Of a stretch of 64,000 bases of DNA, positions 53,073 to 63,768 are shown in pieces (position 1 is the first letter of the stretch; each line of letters begins with the position of its first letter). This DNA comes from Lachnospiraceae bacterium. Its GTDB lineage: Bacteria > Bacillota > Clostridia > Lachnospirales > Lachnospiraceae. Location: contig SVEK01000003.1 of assembly GCA_015057405.1 (NCBI GenBank), positions 50,791 to 114,790 of the forward strand, given 5' to 3'. Below the pieces are notes generated by a model that saw nothing but the letters and a program-made list of their open reading frames with translations, searched no databases and was not told where the DNA came from. A program made the position numbers and the translations under genes.

Positions 53073-53624
53073 TCAATCATCCATATTTTGTAAAATAGGC
53101 GCTGGGAAATAGTATTGTTCCTCCTCTGTTATTTCCTCTATGATATCTCCGTTAACGTATTTGTACCTTGCAACCTCCTCAACTTCTTTATCTCCACTAT
53201 AAAATACAGCATAGATAATTACATTTCCATCGTAATAATCAGGATTACCAACATCATGTAAGCTTTGTGTCCATGTATTATAATAATCAAGGATTACCAG
53301 TCTCTGTTCCTCGGTCATTTTTTGTTGCTCATTCACACTCAAACTTAGTTCCGCATGAGTCATATTGCTTGTATAAACATTATCAGTATACCTTTCTTCC
53401 CATATACCTGCATCTTTCATTTTCATCGCTTCATGATTATTCAAAATCTCTTCATATTCTTTTTGCAGATTGGCAAATTCTTCATTTTTCTTGTCAATCA
53501 TCTCATCTGAAAATTCTTCGCTATTAGTACTTTCGTTACTCTTCCCGCATCCTCCTACCATACATAAGGACAATATTACAACCATAAACATAATTATTTT
53601 TTTCATTATTTCATTTTCCTCCAA
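53073..53624 (-). CDS. Small lipoprotein, paralog of 63223-63768
   Basis: Lipobox LCMVGGC; shared C-terminal I(Y/F)AVFY...EITEEE pattern. Confidence 0.75.
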   Translation of the reverse strand: MEENEIMKKIIMFMVVILSLCMVGGCGKSNESTNSEEFSDEMIDKKNEEFANLQKEYEEILNNHEAMKMKDAGIWEERYTDNVYTSNMTHAELSLSVNEQQKMTEEQRLVILDYYNTWTQSLHDVGNPDYYDGNVIIYAVFYSGDKEVEEVARYKYVNGDIIEEITEEEQYYFPAPILQNMDD

Positions 53625-54168
53625 TCACGTAACGCTTTACAAAATCAAATATACTGTTCAACAACAAAATCATTAAACAGGTTATCGTTGTAATTAAAAA
53701 TGACCATGCCACATCACTTAAACCAATAACTACAATATCATCTAACCTCGTTATCACCGTTGCCATGACAGTTGCAAAGCTGAATCCGACTATAACAACC
53801 ATTAAATATCTCTTAATTATCTCAATACTTTGAAATGTATTGCTTATGCCACATAATTTAAGAGCATATAATAACTGATGACGTTCCCCACGCCAAATAG
53901 TAGTAACCACTATGGAACTTAGTATAAAACATATTGTAATCATTATATACATTCCGTTCATTATGTTATTTGCAGATAAAAACCGTTCAAAAAAAGTAAT
54001 TTCTTCACCTTGTGTTATAATTTCACTCTCCATACTATTTTCTACTATGTTCCTAATGTCTTCCATACGCATTGTAGAAATTAATATCATTATTACTAAT
54101 GACATTGCTGCAAAACTAATAAATAACAGTGTATTTCCTTTAGGCACTCTTTTATTTATTACTTTCAT
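53611..54168 (-). CDS. Short FtsX/MacB-type permease lacking the extracytoplasmic domain
   Basis: Aligns by eye to the N-terminal TM and C-terminal TM part of 60081-61112 without the intervening ~180 aa. Confidence 0.75.
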   Translation of the reverse strand: MKVINKRVPKGNTLLFISFAAMSLVIMILISTMRMEDIRNIVENSMESEIITQGEEITFFERFLSANNIMNGMYIMITICFILSSIVVTTIWRGERHQLLYALKLCGISNTFQSIEIIKRYLMVVIVGFSFATVMATVITRLDDIVVIGLSDVAWSFLITTITCLMILLLNSIFDFVKRYVIGGK

Positions 54169-54841
54169 CCACAACACCATCCTTTATATGAATTATCCTC
54201 TTACAGTTTTCAGCAACCTTCATATCATGTGTAACAACAATTATTGTTTTCCCACTTTCATTGAGTCCTTTTAATATGGACATAACATCTTTACTTGTTT
54301 GTTCATCCAAAGCCCCTGTAGGCTCATCTGCAAGAATAATATCCGGTTTCTTCACAATAGCCCGCGCTATTGCTACTCTCTGCTGCTGTCCTCCTGACAA
54401 TTCTGCAGGATAGGCTTTTGCCTTGTCCTCTATACCAAGTTCAGCTAATGCAGACATCACTAATTCTTTAATTCTATGTCCGGAATACCGTTGATACTTT
54501 AAAGGCAGCGCAACATTTTGAAATACATTAATATCATCTACAAGCGCAAAATACTGCACAACAAATCCAATCTTATCACGCCTAAATCTAGTTAAATTGC
54601 GCTGACTTGAAAAATCAATTTTTTTTCCACAATAGTAATATTCCCCTTTTTCAAAGGACATCATTCCACCTAATATGTTTAGCAGAGTTGATTTGCCGGA
54701 ACCACTCTTTCCCATAATTGCAACCATATCCCCCTGCTCTACCGACATGCTGGCACCCCTAAGAGCCCGTACAGTTCCTTCATTTTTTCCAAATGTTTTA
54801 CATATATCTTTCACTTCAATAATATTCATAATAAACACCAA
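54152..54841 (-). CDS. MacB/LolD-type ABC ATPase
   Basis: [49 protein letters not shown]. Confidence 0.94.
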   Translation of the reverse strand: MVFIMNIIEVKDICKTFGKNEGTVRALRGASMSVEQGDMVAIMGKSGSGKSTLLNILGGMMSFEKGEYYYCGKKIDFSSQRNLTRFRRDKIGFVVQYFALVDDINVFQNVALPLKYQRYSGHRIKELVMSALAELGIEDKAKAYPAELSGGQQQRVAIARAIVKKPDIILADEPTGALDEQTSKDVMSILKGLNESGKTIIVVTHDMKVAENCKRIIHIKDGVVDESNK

Positions 54842-54842
54842 T

Positions 54843-56255
54843 TTAATCCTTCTGTCTGATAAAATGTTCTATATTTGCGCCCTTTAACAGAATCAGAATT
54901 AGTAACGTTCCAAATATAAATACTAATCCTACACATGTATTAGCAAATGATACTATTACTTCCTTTCGACACAAACCAACGTTATTTTCAAAAAACACAT
55001 ATCTGGCCACCAATACAGATGGAATCAACACACATATAACTTCCATCAAATATGACGCTATTATCATCCACATGGAACATCCATTCATTAAATATATTGA
55101 ATATGTTCTTTTGTTCTGTCGAATTTTTTCATAAAGGGTTATGCCAAGGCAATACAAAGTAAAACATACGAGAATTATTGTAAAAATAAGCATAATTTTG
55201 ACGCTTTGAGTTGATTCCTTTCTTAACAAATCAACTCCCATTGAAACACCTTCAAGATGGACAGAAGGAATTCCATGCTTTTCACCAATTTCTCTAAGAG
55301 AATCAACCTGTTTGTTAAGAAATTCCTCCTTGACAATTATCGTTCCATTCTGAAGCGACACGAAATCAAGATTAGCATATTTTCTTATTGCTTTTTGATT
55401 ACTTTCCTCCGTGTTTCCCCGAATAATATCCTCATTAATCCTTATACCCAAAGGGAAGATAATGTGGGAATCTAATATGCAGCTTGAAAAATATGACACT
55501 CCACTATATCCAAGTTTTGGTGTAGATGCTCCTTTTTCAAGAATTCCAATAACCCGGCATCTGTAAACATTATCCCAATATAAAATATCAAGTTCACTTC
55601 CTATTTCCACCAACCCTTTATAATCGTTCCCTAAAATAATCGGAACTGAATCACCAGCGTCTTTTATCGTCATGTTATTTTCATTAAATCCCTCACCAAC
55701 TTCAACCGTGAGATTGCAGAGATTATATGCGTTAAGGTCAAACTGATCTGATTGGAGACAAACAGTACTACATATTTCAGCATTATTATCTTCTCCAAAC
55801 ATAGCTGTTATCGGTTCATCTCCCCATTCATCATCACAAAATCTCTTATATACATCCTTCCCAAGCAATAAATCCGCATCATCTCGCCTAATATAGACAG
55901 GTTGTTCAATAAGACTCGACATTATTTTACAATCAGGAATTGAATGTATGTCTTGATAATAATTGATAATATTTATACATCCTTCGTCTGACGCTAATGC
56001 CTCATTCATTACATCCATATCACCTGACATATAATAATCCAGATTACACCACAGTTCACTATCTGATAACATAGAATCCATCCTGGCGTATCTGTCACCT
56101 ATATCAAGATAATATGAACTCATTATTACTGTCATTATTAAACTCAAAGAAAACATAACCGCCAACAGTATATTGCGTGTAATTCCTTTTTTGAAGCTGC
56201 GAAAAAATTCTTCAAGCACAAATATTAAACCTTTCATTATTTTCCCTACTTTCAA
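54843..56255 (-). CDS. FtsX/MacB-type ABC permease
   Basis: N-terminal TM, extracytoplasmic domain, three C-terminal TMs; paralog of 61842 ORF. Confidence 0.82.
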   Translation of the reverse strand: MKVGKIMKGLIFVLEEFFRSFKKGITRNILLAVMFSLSLIMTVIMSSYYLDIGDRYARMDSMLSDSELWCNLDYYMSGDMDVMNEALASDEGCINIINYYQDIHSIPDCKIMSSLIEQPVYIRRDDADLLLGKDVYKRFCDDEWGDEPITAMFGEDNNAEICSTVCLQSDQFDLNAYNLCNLTVEVGEGFNENNMTIKDAGDSVPIILGNDYKGLVEIGSELDILYWDNVYRCRVIGILEKGASTPKLGYSGVSYFSSCILDSHIIFPLGIRINEDIIRGNTEESNQKAIRKYANLDFVSLQNGTIIVKEEFLNKQVDSLREIGEKHGIPSVHLEGVSMGVDLLRKESTQSVKIMLIFTIILVCFTLYCLGITLYEKIRQNKRTYSIYLMNGCSMWMIIASYLMEVICVLIPSVLVARYVFFENNVGLCRKEVIVSFANTCVGLVFIFGTLLILILLKGANIEHFIRQKD

Positions 56256-56286: not shown

Positions 56287-56673
56287 CTAGTTTTGGAACC
56301 AGCGATTTGTTCCCGAAGTATCATTAGGACTTGCTACATTATAACTGTGCCATGCAACTGTATTCCTGGATGCACCTGAATTAGATATTGCTTTTCCTAA
56401 TCCGGTCTTTACAACATAGTAACCATTCTCTATCATACTTGCACCGGCATTAACTGACGCCGGAACACCATTACTAGCAATACAACCAGATACAACAGTA
56501 TGACTATAACTGTAGGTAGCATCTCTTTTTATCTTTGAACCATCAACAGATAATACGCAATTACTATACCTAACTGTCTTTGCTTCTGCTGTTGTAATAA
56601 CTGTGCATATTGCCATTGCGCTCAATGTAGTTATTGCTATAGTCTTTTTAATATTGTTAATTACTTTTCTCAT
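56287..56673 (-). CDS. Small secreted protein (bacteriocin-like candidate)
   Basis: Signal peptide MRKVINNIKKTIAITTLSAMAICTVITTAEA; ~97-aa mature Ser/Gly/Asn-rich protein with two Cys; immediately upstream of the ABC module. Confidence 0.6.
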   Translation of the reverse strand: MRKVINNIKKTIAITTLSAMAICTVITTAEAKTVRYSNCVLSVDGSKIKRDATYSYSHTVVSGCIASNGVPASVNAGASMIENGYYVVKTGLGKAISNSGASRNTVAWHSYNVASPNDTSGTNRWFQN

Positions 56674-56803: not shown

Positions 56804-56844
56804 GCGTTCTTTTCAGGTGCTTCAACACCGTATGAAAAGAACGC
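56804..56844. other. Nested strong hairpin
   Basis: GCGTTCTTTTCA-GGTG-cttcaa-CACC-gta-TGAAAAGAACGC, followed on the plus strand by TTTTT. Confidence 0.85.
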
Positions 56845-57080: not shown

Positions 57081-57671
57081 TCAACATCGAATATGACAAC
57101 GCTTATTCTTTTCACTTTTTGCTTCAAGTATCAATGAAATGCATTCTGTCAAATGTGCCAGCATTATACACTTTGATATTGTCGTACATTTTAACACCAA
57201 TAAAATTACTCCTATACAGAATTCTATTCCCCAAACTACTTTAACCTTTTTCCTATATATTACCTTTTCTATTTGGTCTAAGTCCTTGTTTTCACATCCC
57301 ATCGGTGCCAATAATAAAATAATCAAACCCGAAATAATACTTACTATTAAACAAACAACACTACTTAGTTTAACAAATTTTATTATCGCAAGATTTAATG
57401 ATAGAATTAAAACCGTACCAATAAAACACTTTATAGGTGTAGTTGCATGATATCCACCTGCATAGATTCTAAGAATTACAAAAGATAGTGTGAGAATAAT
57501 TCCTTCAATAACTTCCCCAAAAACTAATCCAACAAATAAGATGGTTATAATGTTTACCAAATACGTTAATAACTGATTCAATCCAAATACATATATTTCC
57601 TCATCATCTTCTTTAAACATATTTTTTTCTGAATAACTGTGCATTATTTTTTTTGCAAGCACGTGGAACAT
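57081..57671 (-). CDS. agrB: AgrB-family peptide protease/exporter
   Basis: AgrB pattern: LRIYAGGYHATTPIKCFIGT (conserved His and downstream Cys), multi-TM. Confidence 0.9.
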   Translation of the reverse strand: MFHVLAKKIMHSYSEKNMFKEDDEEIYVFGLNQLLTYLVNIITILFVGLVFGEVIEGIILTLSFVILRIYAGGYHATTPIKCFIGTVLILSLNLAIIKFVKLSSVVCLIVSIISGLIILLLAPMGCENKDLDQIEKVIYRKKVKVVWGIEFCIGVILLVLKCTTISKCIMLAHLTECISLILEAKSEKNKRCHIRC

Positions 57672-57814
57672 TAGTTTTTCCTCAATTTCTTTACTTTTTC
57701 AGGCAACTGTGGCTGATAAAAAAAGAAACCACACACTGAATTAGCACTTTGTTTAGAAGTTAAATACGCAACTCTAATCACCGTTTTACTAATCTTATCT
57801 GTACCTTTTCTCAT
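57671..57814 (-). CDS. agrD: AgrD-like cyclic autoinducer pre-peptide (47 aa, not in ORF track)
   Basis: MRKGTDKISKTVIRVAYLTSKQSANSVCGFFFYQPQLPEKVKKLRKN; RBS gaggagg; stop overlaps the agrB start (TAATG); Cys core followed by YQPxxPE. Confidence 0.88.
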   Translation of the reverse strand: MRKGTDKISKTVIRVAYLTSKQSANSVCGFFFYQPQLPEKVKKLRKN

Positions 57815-57967
57815 TTTTTAAGTCCTCCTCTTTGTTTTTATTTAAATTACATATATAATCTACCACAAAATAACTTCAATAACGAAGTCTTGCCCGAATT
57901 TATATATGTTTATGCCTAAATTTACAGTTTTCGCTCCTCAATTAATACATTTTAACCCCGAAACGTA

Positions 57968-60080: not shown

Positions 60081-61112
60081 TTATACCTTCTTAGGAAATA
60101 AAACAAAGTTTACCGTATACAACGTCCCAAGTATGACTAACCCCAATCCCGCTGACATTATAAATGCCAGTAAAATGTCAGTTAAAAATATTGTTATATC
60201 ACTAATGCATGCACCTATTATCAGGGCTATGATGACACTTGTCAGATAAGCACACAAAGTTACCGGGTAGTATTTTTTGAAGATTTCCAGTGCCATTAGT
60301 CCTTTGTTATAACCACACAGGTTAAGGGCCGCAAAAAACTTACCACGAAATTCCAGCCACATTTTTGTTACCAGTACCGTACACAGTGAAAAACATACTA
60401 CAATCATTACATATAACAGGTTCATTATGGCTCCGCCGGCAATAATGTCATTAAGAAATCCCTCACTACTGTAACCTGGAACAATAACTACACTGTCTGA
60501 TTTTCCCGAAAGTTCTCTTTCCAAATCCGTTCCAACAAGTATGATGTCTTTCTTTGATTTTGCATCAAGATAATACTGTCCCGCAATCCCGTTTATACCA
60601 AGTGCAGAATTAAAGTCAATTAATATCATATTGTTAACTCTGCTCTCTCTCTCCAGTCCCATTACGCCTATTACTTCAAACTTTGTGTCTCCATATGAAA
60701 AATAGGCTTTTTCATCTTCGTACTGAATCTTGTCCTGATGATCGGCTCCAATCACCGCTGTAGGGTTAGATGTAAGAGAGGTGTCCGCGGTAAAATAATC
60801 CCCCCATATCATAGGCGGAGTCTGCACTTCTCCGTTAATGTATACGCCCCTTATTACAAATTCCTCTTCTTCCATGGGAAGAAATATTCCATAATCTTCC
60901 CAGTCGGCTGACAGGTCAGGAATAACCATGTCCCACAAATCATCATCCCCTTCAAATACCGTGAAGGAGGTTTCGTTCCCTGTATACATGCCATTACGGC
61001 TCATTTCATTGTAGCGCTGGGTCCTTACCGAAGATGCAATTATTATAAAACATAGGGAAACTGCAACAAAACTGGCAAATAACATACCGTTTCCCTTTGA
61101 TATTTTTCTCAT
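60081..61112 (-). CDS. FtsX/MacB-type ABC permease (full-length paralog)
   Basis: TM + extracytoplasmic domain + 3 TM; start chosen at MRKISKG. Confidence 0.8.
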   Translation of the reverse strand: MRKISKGNGMLFASFVAVSLCFIIIASSVRTQRYNEMSRNGMYTGNETSFTVFEGDDDLWDMVIPDLSADWEDYGIFLPMEEEEFVIRGVYINGEVQTPPMIWGDYFTADTSLTSNPTAVIGADHQDKIQYEDEKAYFSYGDTKFEVIGVMGLERESRVNNMILIDFNSALGINGIAGQYYLDAKSKKDIILVGTDLERELSGKSDSVVIVPGYSSEGFLNDIIAGGAIMNLLYVMIVVCFSLCTVLVTKMWLEFRGKFFAALNLCGYNKGLMALEIFKKYYPVTLCAYLTSVIIALIIGACISDITIFLTDILLAFIMSAGLGLVILGTLYTVNFVLFPKKV

Positions 61113-61123
61113 TATATTGTCAA

Positions 61124-61822
61124 TCACCTGGAACCTCCATCTAATACACCATCGTCTGCAACTTTTCCATCCCTTAATCTGATTACCCTGTCGCATTTTG
61201 CGGCAACATTGGCATCGTGGGTAACAATAATTATCGTTTTTCCCTGATTATTAAGTTTTCTGAATATGTCCATAACAACTTCCCCGGTTGCCTCATCAAG
61301 AGCTCCGGTAGGTTCATCCGCAAGAATCAAATCAGGTTCCTTAACTATTGCCCTTGCTATTGCAACTCTCTGCTGCTGTCCGCCAGACAATTCGGTAGGA
61401 TATGCTTTTCTTTTTTCTGATAACTCCAGTTCCTCCAATGCTTTTAGCACTTTTTCCTTTCTCTCTTTTGACGAATAACCAAGATATTTAAGGGGAATCT
61501 CCACATTTTTATGTATGGTCATGTCATCAATCAGGGCAAAATACTGAACTACAAATCCTATTTCCTTTCGTCTGAAACGAGTAAGTTCCTTCTGTTTTGT
61601 GGTTACTACTTTTTTTCCTTTGTAATAATACTCTCCCGAATCCATGGTAATTAATCCGCCAAGTGTATTAAGAAGTGTAGACTTTCCACACCCGCTTTTT
61701 CCCATTATGGCAACCATTTCTCCTTTTTTAATGGATAAGCTGACACCCTGCAGTGCACTCACTGCCGCGCCACTCTTTCCATATGTTTTTTTTACGTCAA
61801 CAAGTTCTATTATATTATCCAT
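61124..61822 (-). CDS. MacB/LolD-type ABC ATPase
   Basis: [49 protein letters not shown]. Confidence 0.94.
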
Positions 61823-61841
61823 AACCTTCTACCTCTTTTAC

Positions 61842-63203
61842 CTACTCACCATTTTTTATAAGTTTTTCCGTATCAACACCCCTCATAATACATACTAGGA
61901 ACGCCACTCCCAGTAAATATGCGGCAAGAACCACCATATAAACAGCATTAATTATGACATCAGCATTGAAATAAACAGAAGACATTTCCTGTCCGAATAT
62001 ACACTTTCCAAGAATCAGCGACGGGATTATTATTGCTGCAATCTCCATCATAAAAGGAATGGTTATCATCGATGTACTGCACCCGTTCATAAGATATATT
62101 CCATAGATTTCCTGATTATTTTTTATTTTATTATGAATAATCAGGAACAGGGAAAATAATGTAAAACACACAAGACATATGCTTATAATCAGCATAATCC
62201 TAATATTTCCCACTGCCTCCTTACGAAACAACCTCTGACCCATTGATGACCCTGTAGATGACATTGGGGGAAGATTATATTTGTCTCCTATCTGCGAAAA
62301 CAATTCAGCAATTTCCCTGAATTCAGTGTTATAATGAAACATCATCTGACAGGTCTCAAGTGAATGATAATTAACATATGCATACCTTGCCAGTACATTA
62401 TTATCCGTTGTTTCAAAATTCAGATTAATTCCGCAAGGGAAAATAATATGAGAGTCTAATGACATAAGTCCCTGCCCTGATGAACCAAAGTTGTATACTT
62501 TACTTCCCTGTTCAAGTATTCCCACAACCTTACAGTTAAACAGATAATCGGTTCCGTCTATGGCAATCCTCAGTTTAGTGCCAACGTCCATAAACTCACT
62601 GTAACTGCTCCCAAGAACTACTGGCAGCTCATCTGAGGGACTGTTTAATGTTGTATTATCACGGGTAATTCCTTCCCCTTTGACAGTTTTAAATCCAAAG
62701 TATTCATACGCATCTGTATCACAATGAATAGCCTTAAATTGTCTGTATTCCTCATCAACTCCGTCAATTTTAGCACCAAAACTTCCTCCGGGGAAATCCT
62801 GTGGCTCAAACATTCTTACTTTATCCTCCGGAATATATTTATCACATTCCTCCTCAATCAGCAGAATTTGTTGGATTGTATTAATGGACATAACCGGATG
62901 GGACGGAATACTGTAGACTTCTTTGTAATAATCCATAACTTTCTGACTGTCTTTTGCAGTTTCAAAACTTTTCTCAACCTCAATCCAGTCCTGACCCTCA
63001 AAACGAATGTTATACCATGTACCGTCTTCGTCGTAATTACTTACACTGTCTGAAGTACGTTCCCCCAAATCAAGATAATAAGAAGACATAAGCACGGTCA
63101 TTGTAATGCATATGGAAAACATTATCATTAACAGGATATTATTTATTATTCCTTTTTGAAAACTCCTGAAAAATTCATCAAATATAAAATGTATCTTTCC
63201 CAT
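61842..63203 (-). CDS. FtsX/MacB-type ABC permease
   Basis: Start chosen at MGKIHFIFDEFFRSFQKGIINN, matching FVLEEFFRSFKKGITRN in the 54843 paralog. Confidence 0.82.
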   Translation of the reverse strand: MGKIHFIFDEFFRSFQKGIINNILLMIMFSICITMTVLMSSYYLDLGERTSDSVSNYDEDGTWYNIRFEGQDWIEVEKSFETAKDSQKVMDYYKEVYSIPSHPVMSINTIQQILLIEEECDKYIPEDKVRMFEPQDFPGGSFGAKIDGVDEEYRQFKAIHCDTDAYEYFGFKTVKGEGITRDNTTLNSPSDELPVVLGSSYSEFMDVGTKLRIAIDGTDYLFNCKVVGILEQGSKVYNFGSSGQGLMSLDSHIIFPCGINLNFETTDNNVLARYAYVNYHSLETCQMMFHYNTEFREIAELFSQIGDKYNLPPMSSTGSSMGQRLFRKEAVGNIRIMLIISICLVCFTLFSLFLIIHNKIKNNQEIYGIYLMNGCSTSMITIPFMMEIAAIIIPSLILGKCIFGQEMSSVYFNADVIINAVYMVVLAAYLLGVAFLVCIMRGVDTEKLIKNGE

Positions 63204-63222
63204 AATAAACTCCTTTGAAGCC

Positions 63223-63768
63223 TTACTCTTCAAGCCCGGTATCATCATCATGAACTCTACTTGAAGATATAATAGTATTAAACCAAATCTCATCTTCCTC
63301 TGTAATATCCATCTTTCCTTCACTTCCATATTTTACAGTTTCCAACACATCATAAGTGTCTTTATCATAAAATACAGCAAAAATAGAGTTCACTTTATAG
63401 TCACAGTAGTCATCACCCTCATCAAACTTTTCTTCCCAGTAATACTCCAAAATTTCCATAATTTCTTCATCACTGAGTTTTTCATACACAGTTATGCCCA
63501 GATGTACATCACATATTTCTTCCGAACTGCTGTAATCAGCGTAATCAGGATAAGTTCTGCCACAACTCCTTTCCTGCCATTTACCATCCTTATAACTATC
63601 TAAGTCCACATCTTCTTTTTCTTCAACCCACACATCTTCACCCGATTCCTCTACACTCTCACTTACATTTTCTTTTGGTGGTTCTGTATTAACCAGACTT
63701 TTCTTTCCACACCCTGTGGCTGCCACCATACACACCATACACAATGCTATACAGATTATTTTTTTCAT
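63223..63768 (-). CDS. Small lipoprotein of ABC module B
   Basis: MKKIICIALCMVCMVAATGCGKK lipobox; paralog of 53073-53624. Confidence 0.8.
   Translation of the reverse strand: MKKIICIALCMVCMVAATGCGKKSLVNTEPPKENVSESVEESGEDVWVEEKEDVDLDSYKDGKWQERSCGRTYPDYADYSSSEEICDVHLGITVYEKLSDEEIMEILEYYWEEKFDEGDDYCDYKVNSIFAVFYDKDTYDVLETVKYGSEGKMDITEEDEIWFNTIISSSRVHDDDTGLEE

Follow-up and report, generated by a model that had tools for sequence, protein, structure and literature searches.

A complete agr-type locus with a predicted CGFFF cyclic peptide signal in a Lachnospiraceae genome

The agr2 locus of Clostridioides difficile R20291 has the gene order agrA-agrC-agrD-agrB, with a LytTR-type AgrA and an AgrD of 46 amino acids encoded directly before AgrB (PMC3754575). 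The locus described here lies in a 64,000-nucleotide stretch of Lachnospiraceae DNA (the window, meaning the whole stretch analysed) taken from the end of contig C42 in a 2.83-Mb draft genome (94% complete), and it has the same order, the same type of AgrA and an equally placed AgrD of 47 amino acids. Its core residues differ, and unlike C. difficile agr2 the cluster has FtsX/ABC cassettes on both sides, with the gene for a secreted-like protein of 128 amino acids coming next after agrB. The best named AgrB relatives were from uncultured Lachnospiraceae, and three of their loci (L046, CANRIV010000003.1; L048, CALWNA010000062.1; L045, CANQPJ010000016.1) also showed the agrACDB order, with AgrB 39-43% and AgrA 51-59% identical to those of the window, cores of CAFFF, CAFFF and CSWFF, respectively, and direct repeats 5' of agrD as observed here, but they differed from the window in the second core residue (Gly here) and in the downstream genes. 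The Staphylococcus aureus agrBDCA locus shares the components, the presumed logic, the ring position of the Cys and the AgrA direct repeats, while its gene order differs. Little was found on agr signalling in Lachnospiraceae among the papers searched, and the window adds one defined signal, with a predicted CGFFF ring, for a gut-type bacterium of this family. Taken alone the locus changes no concept, being a new signal within a known kind of agr system.

All four window genes, in the order agrA-agrC-agrD-agrB, were open and full length with their motifs kept (Table 1). Linked to agrD were an AgrC-type histidine kinase and a LytTR response regulator, which places the locus among the agr systems. 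We put the probability that this is a complete, normally built agr set, with 57671-57814 as its agrD, at roughly 0.93. The gene identities, their order, the ring position, the basic tail and the repeats, as described below, are all read directly from the sequence.

Table 1. Position of the agr genes, their associated elements and the genes downstream of agrB in the window.
Feature	Position	Strand	Basis or remark
Lipoprotein, 183 aa	53073..53624	-	lipobox-like start; 26% identical to C54 lipoprotein
Short permease-like membrane protein, 189 aa	53611..54180	-	ORF and position; no family match
ABC ATPase	54152..54841	-	TIGR03608 (lactococcin-972-type ABC) as best NCBIfam match; 232.7 bits, below the cut-off of 254.85
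FtsX-like permease, 470 aa	54843..56255	-	sub-threshold FtsX match; paralogous gene order
128-aa protein, signal-peptide-like N-terminus, first gene 3' of agrB, candidate output	56287..56673	-	ORF; no family match
agrB, membrane endopeptidase, 196 aa	57081..57671	-	PF04647 130 bits; His75 and Cys82 conserved
agrD, AIP precursor, 47 aa	57671..57814	-	translation; TIGR04223 37 bits (cut-off 19); family alignment
agrD RBS GAGGAGG	57824..57830	-	read from sequence; nine bases 5' of ATG
Direct repeat AAATTTAGGCA-N11-AAATTCGGGCA, period 22, probable AgrA box	57891..57923	-	76 nt upstream of agrD ATG
agrC, sensor histidine kinase, 425 aa	57968..59245	-	HATPase_c_5 (GHKL) E 5e-26; staphylococcal AgrC model weak match
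agrA, response regulator with LytTR domain, 242 aa	59245..59973	-	LytTR E 2e-16; Response_reg E 8e-12

The agrD ORF translates as MRKGTDKISKTVIRVAYLTSKQSANSVCGFFFYQPQLPEKVKKLRKN followed by a stop codon, and the position, length, ribosome-binding site and TAATG overlap with agrB given for it in an earlier note were reproduced exactly on re-translation. A single base is common to the agrD TAA (57673-57671) and the agrB ATG (57671-57669), an overlap also observed in a relative (L012) and in several other loci. The NCBIfam model for AgrD family cyclic lactone autoinducer peptides, TIGR04223, matched residues 9-43 (E 2.6e-9) well above its cut-off, and the architecture of the peptide recurred at the same position in many related genomes, being found across 71 loci; both a match to an AgrD model and conservation in relatives had been proposed as checks on the gene. 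The Pfam model PF05931 gave 12.8 bits against a gathering score of 22.7, which is expected for a model built on staphylococci. The leader, which in AgrD peptides is amphipathic, reached a hydrophobic moment of up to 0.75. Short ORFs are common, and one could stand beside agrB by chance and without function, but this explanation is refuted by the model match and the conservation, alongside the ribosome-binding site and the translational overlap. Given the TIGR04223 match, the intact AgrB encoded next to it and the architecture recurring in relatives, the ORF is by these features a genuine AgrD of a well-known kind and more than a chance reading frame.

In AgrB, His75 and Cys82 occupied invariant columns among the relatives and stood seven residues apart, the same spacing as in the His77/Cys84 pair of S. 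aureus AgrB. A sequence search found no solved AgrB structure. In 41 of 80 AgrB loci, genes for AgrC and AgrA lay upstream in the same orientation, and the order agrA-agrC-agrD-agrB was common to L045, L046, L048, L049, L050 and L052. These nearest relatives had AgrC proteins 34-46% and AgrA proteins 50-59% identical to those of the window, with a core of the form C-x-[FYWL]-F-F. Other genomes of the genus contained distant AgrBs only (23-26% identical), which indicates that the agr type of the window is patchily distributed there. Among the plasmids searched, too, every AgrB was distant, with identities of no more than 32%, and no relative was observed in the viral contigs searched.

Two other agr sets were observed in the same genome, on contigs C54 and C37. 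The existence of these paralogous AgrB/AgrD sets, one with an AgrB that is itself truncated and fused, would be in keeping with the window set being a decayed or silent copy, but the four open, full-length genes with their motifs, ribosome-binding site, overlap and upstream repeats argue against this, and we regard it as very improbable. The C54 AgrB (L043:4706-5200, minus strand) was cut after about 100 residues and continued in frame into a tail of ~60 residues that resembles the C-terminal part of a small secreted protein. At the equivalent place, L125 from the same genus has an AgrB that is intact and, encoded separately, a secreted protein. The third AgrD of the genome, on C37 (L002:2030-2185, minus strand), barely reached the AgrD model cut-off. 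Eight residues separate the start of its possible ring at the Cys from the HQP break (CGAATVFF), which would be unusually long.

To read the ring, 71 distinct AgrD/AgrB loci were aligned on the break motif [YHF]Q[PE]. The residue after the break was Y in 39 AgrDs, H in 24 and F in 5 (68 of 71), and 53 of the 71 had a Cys at precisely the fifth position ahead of the break. The predicted ring of the window AgrD is C28-G29-F30-F31-F32, with the break before Y33-Q34-P35 (CGFFF, then YQPQLPEKVKKLRKN). A five-residue CGFFF ring is thus well supported by the family's Cys position, in agreement with the core named in the earlier note, and the C-x4-[HY]QPxxP arrangement described there was present exactly. 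The CGFFF core itself was observed once among the 71 AgrDs, in the window only; the cores of the closest loci were CAFFF (twice), CSWFF, CSYFF, CTYFF, CTLFF and CCYFF, and two final Phe residues are therefore a feature of the subgroup to which the window AgrD belongs. An acidic, Pro-containing C-terminal tail had also been expected. The Pro of QPxxP was found, but the tail (QPxxPxxVKKLRK) is basic, as are those of 69 of the 71 loci. The S. aureus AgrD tail, in contrast, is acidic, and acidity is a trait of the staphylococcal subgroup and not of the AgrD family as a whole. With the family alignment as a guide, the ring of such peptides can be read off the sequence by a simple rule.

In the processing scheme we propose, AgrD would attach to the membrane through its amphipathic leader, and AgrB would cut before Y33-Q34-P35 and join Cys28 to Phe32 in a thiolactone. 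Cleavage of the leader as well, near ...SANSV, would then release a cyclic peptide with the CGFFF ring. Exotail-free pentapeptides have been reported in Clostridium thermocellum (PMC5322536) and in Listeria, where a tail-free thiolactone rearranges (PMC11297923), and Molloy 2021 is cited in the latter paper for this rearrangement in clostridia. The window AgrD could accordingly yield a mature cyclic pentapeptide that has no exotail and passes through an S-to-N acyl shift to homodetic cyclo-CGFFF, so that the signal would not be a tailed thiolactone. The C. thermocellum peptide resembles the window AgrD in its five-residue ring and in the conserved Tyr and Pro residues that follow the core, but it is a Ser lactone and is encoded apart from an agr cluster, while the window has a Cys and a complete agr set (PMC5322536). 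The leader cut site of the window AgrD is not fixed by its sequence, and we hold the tail-free product to be a tentative alternative with perhaps one chance in three.

Several AgrDs within the aligned set departed from the usual ring. In twelve of them (L072, L074, L078, L081, L085, L087, L089, L097, L098, L100, L101, L117) the Cys was one place nearer the break, e.g. NSTTCVAL-YQP, with mostly Thr or Ser at the usual ring position, and four others (L077, L082, L084, L091) had no usable Cys near the break, e.g. STTSGTM-FQP. The sequences of these shifted-Cys and Cys-less AgrDs suggest four-residue thiolactones or five-residue lactones. The agrD frame of L014 (1354-1500, the same sequence as L051) was broken in a T run of the core, which may be a frameshift, phase variation or a sequencing error.

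S. aureus AgrA binds a pair of direct repeats upstream of P2 and P3, centred near -60 (PMC4227749), and the repeats upstream of agrD in the 71-locus set resemble this pair. We determined the best 11-mer direct repeat in the 100 nt 5' of agrD for each of the 71 loci. At a period of 21-22 the mean match was 8.42 of 11, compared to 6.5-7.1 at nine other period settings, and at least 10 of 11 positions matched in 16 of the 71 loci, compared to 0-2 at the other settings. This strong enrichment upstream of agrD is a new observation. The window repeat was marginal when taken alone (shuffle p = 0.06) and convincing together with the 71-locus group. A tightened repeat motif was found in 0 of 2000 shuffles but was derived from the same sequences, and we therefore relied on the period comparison. 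The half-sites ended in GGCA in both halves of the window repeat and in TACA in L045, L046 and L049. None of the loci tried had a match to the standard LytTR consensus [TA][AC][CA]GTTN[AG][TG] ahead of agrD, Rfam gave no match, and no terminators or promoters were distinguishable from chance.

The direct repeats 5' of the window agrD are probably an AgrA box. In the proposed scheme, AgrC would sense the cyclic peptide and AgrA would bind the repeats and raise agrDB expression. With up to 3 mismatches allowed, the window repeat had no second copy in the genome, and direct AgrA control may thus be limited to agrDB and the genes transcribed with them. Repeats with a 21-22 nt period offer a handle on agr targets in Lachnospiraceae-type genomes.

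Read-through from agrDB might possibly raise expression of the neighbouring genes for the secreted protein and the ABC cassette, across a gap of about 400 nt between agrB and the gene for the 128-aa protein. This gap contained a perfect 12-nt inverted repeat (56804-56844; GCGTTCTTTTCA / TGAAAAGAACGC, 17 nt between the arms), with no match in Rfam. The 128-aa protein had no family match in Pfam or NCBIfam, and AlphaFold2, run without an alignment, gave a mean pLDDT of 29.7. Lactococcin 972 was considered as an identity for this protein and rejected, as neither database gave a match and PF09683 found nothing above its cut-off in the genome. For the ABC ATPase, the lactococcin-972 transporter model TIGR03608 was the best match, with a score under the cut-off. 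The sub-cut-off family matches of the relatives' downstream secreted proteins were weak and were taken as noise.

Of 50 loci, 11 had a related ABC ATPase no more than 5 kb downstream of agrB, a few of them near-identical, and none had one at 5-8 kb. The first gene after agrB was secreted-like in 9 of 38 loci, about twice the background of 12% (p = 0.036 by a crude test). On C54 and in L125, a different agrDB pair had as neighbours a secreted protein, or what appears to be left of one, and a cassette of the same type. An agr-controlled secreted product is weakly indicated by these data, which do not show a bacteriocin, and the 128-aa protein with its FtsX/ABC cassette is a plausible candidate for the agr output. 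A more speculative reading would make agr the density switch for an antagonism system linked to it, in which a fast-evolving small secreted protein is paired with an FtsX/ABC cassette of its own for immunity or export and the arrangement is repeated at several different agr loci of Lachnospiraceae; we consider this rather unlikely.

Two related cassettes, each with a lipoprotein, an FtsX-like permease, an ABC ATPase and a second permease, flanked the window agr genes on the minus strand (53073-56255 and 60081-63768), and the lipoprotein at 63223-63768 (minus strand) was 46% identical to a lipoprotein encoded next to the agr set of C54. The gene directly after agrB in L056 encodes a peptide of 78 aa whose leader is of the GG type (MNINGG), and both L056 and L058 have an ABC gene some 3.4 kb downstream of agrB. 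This arrangement resembles that of a class II bacteriocin encoded next to agr.
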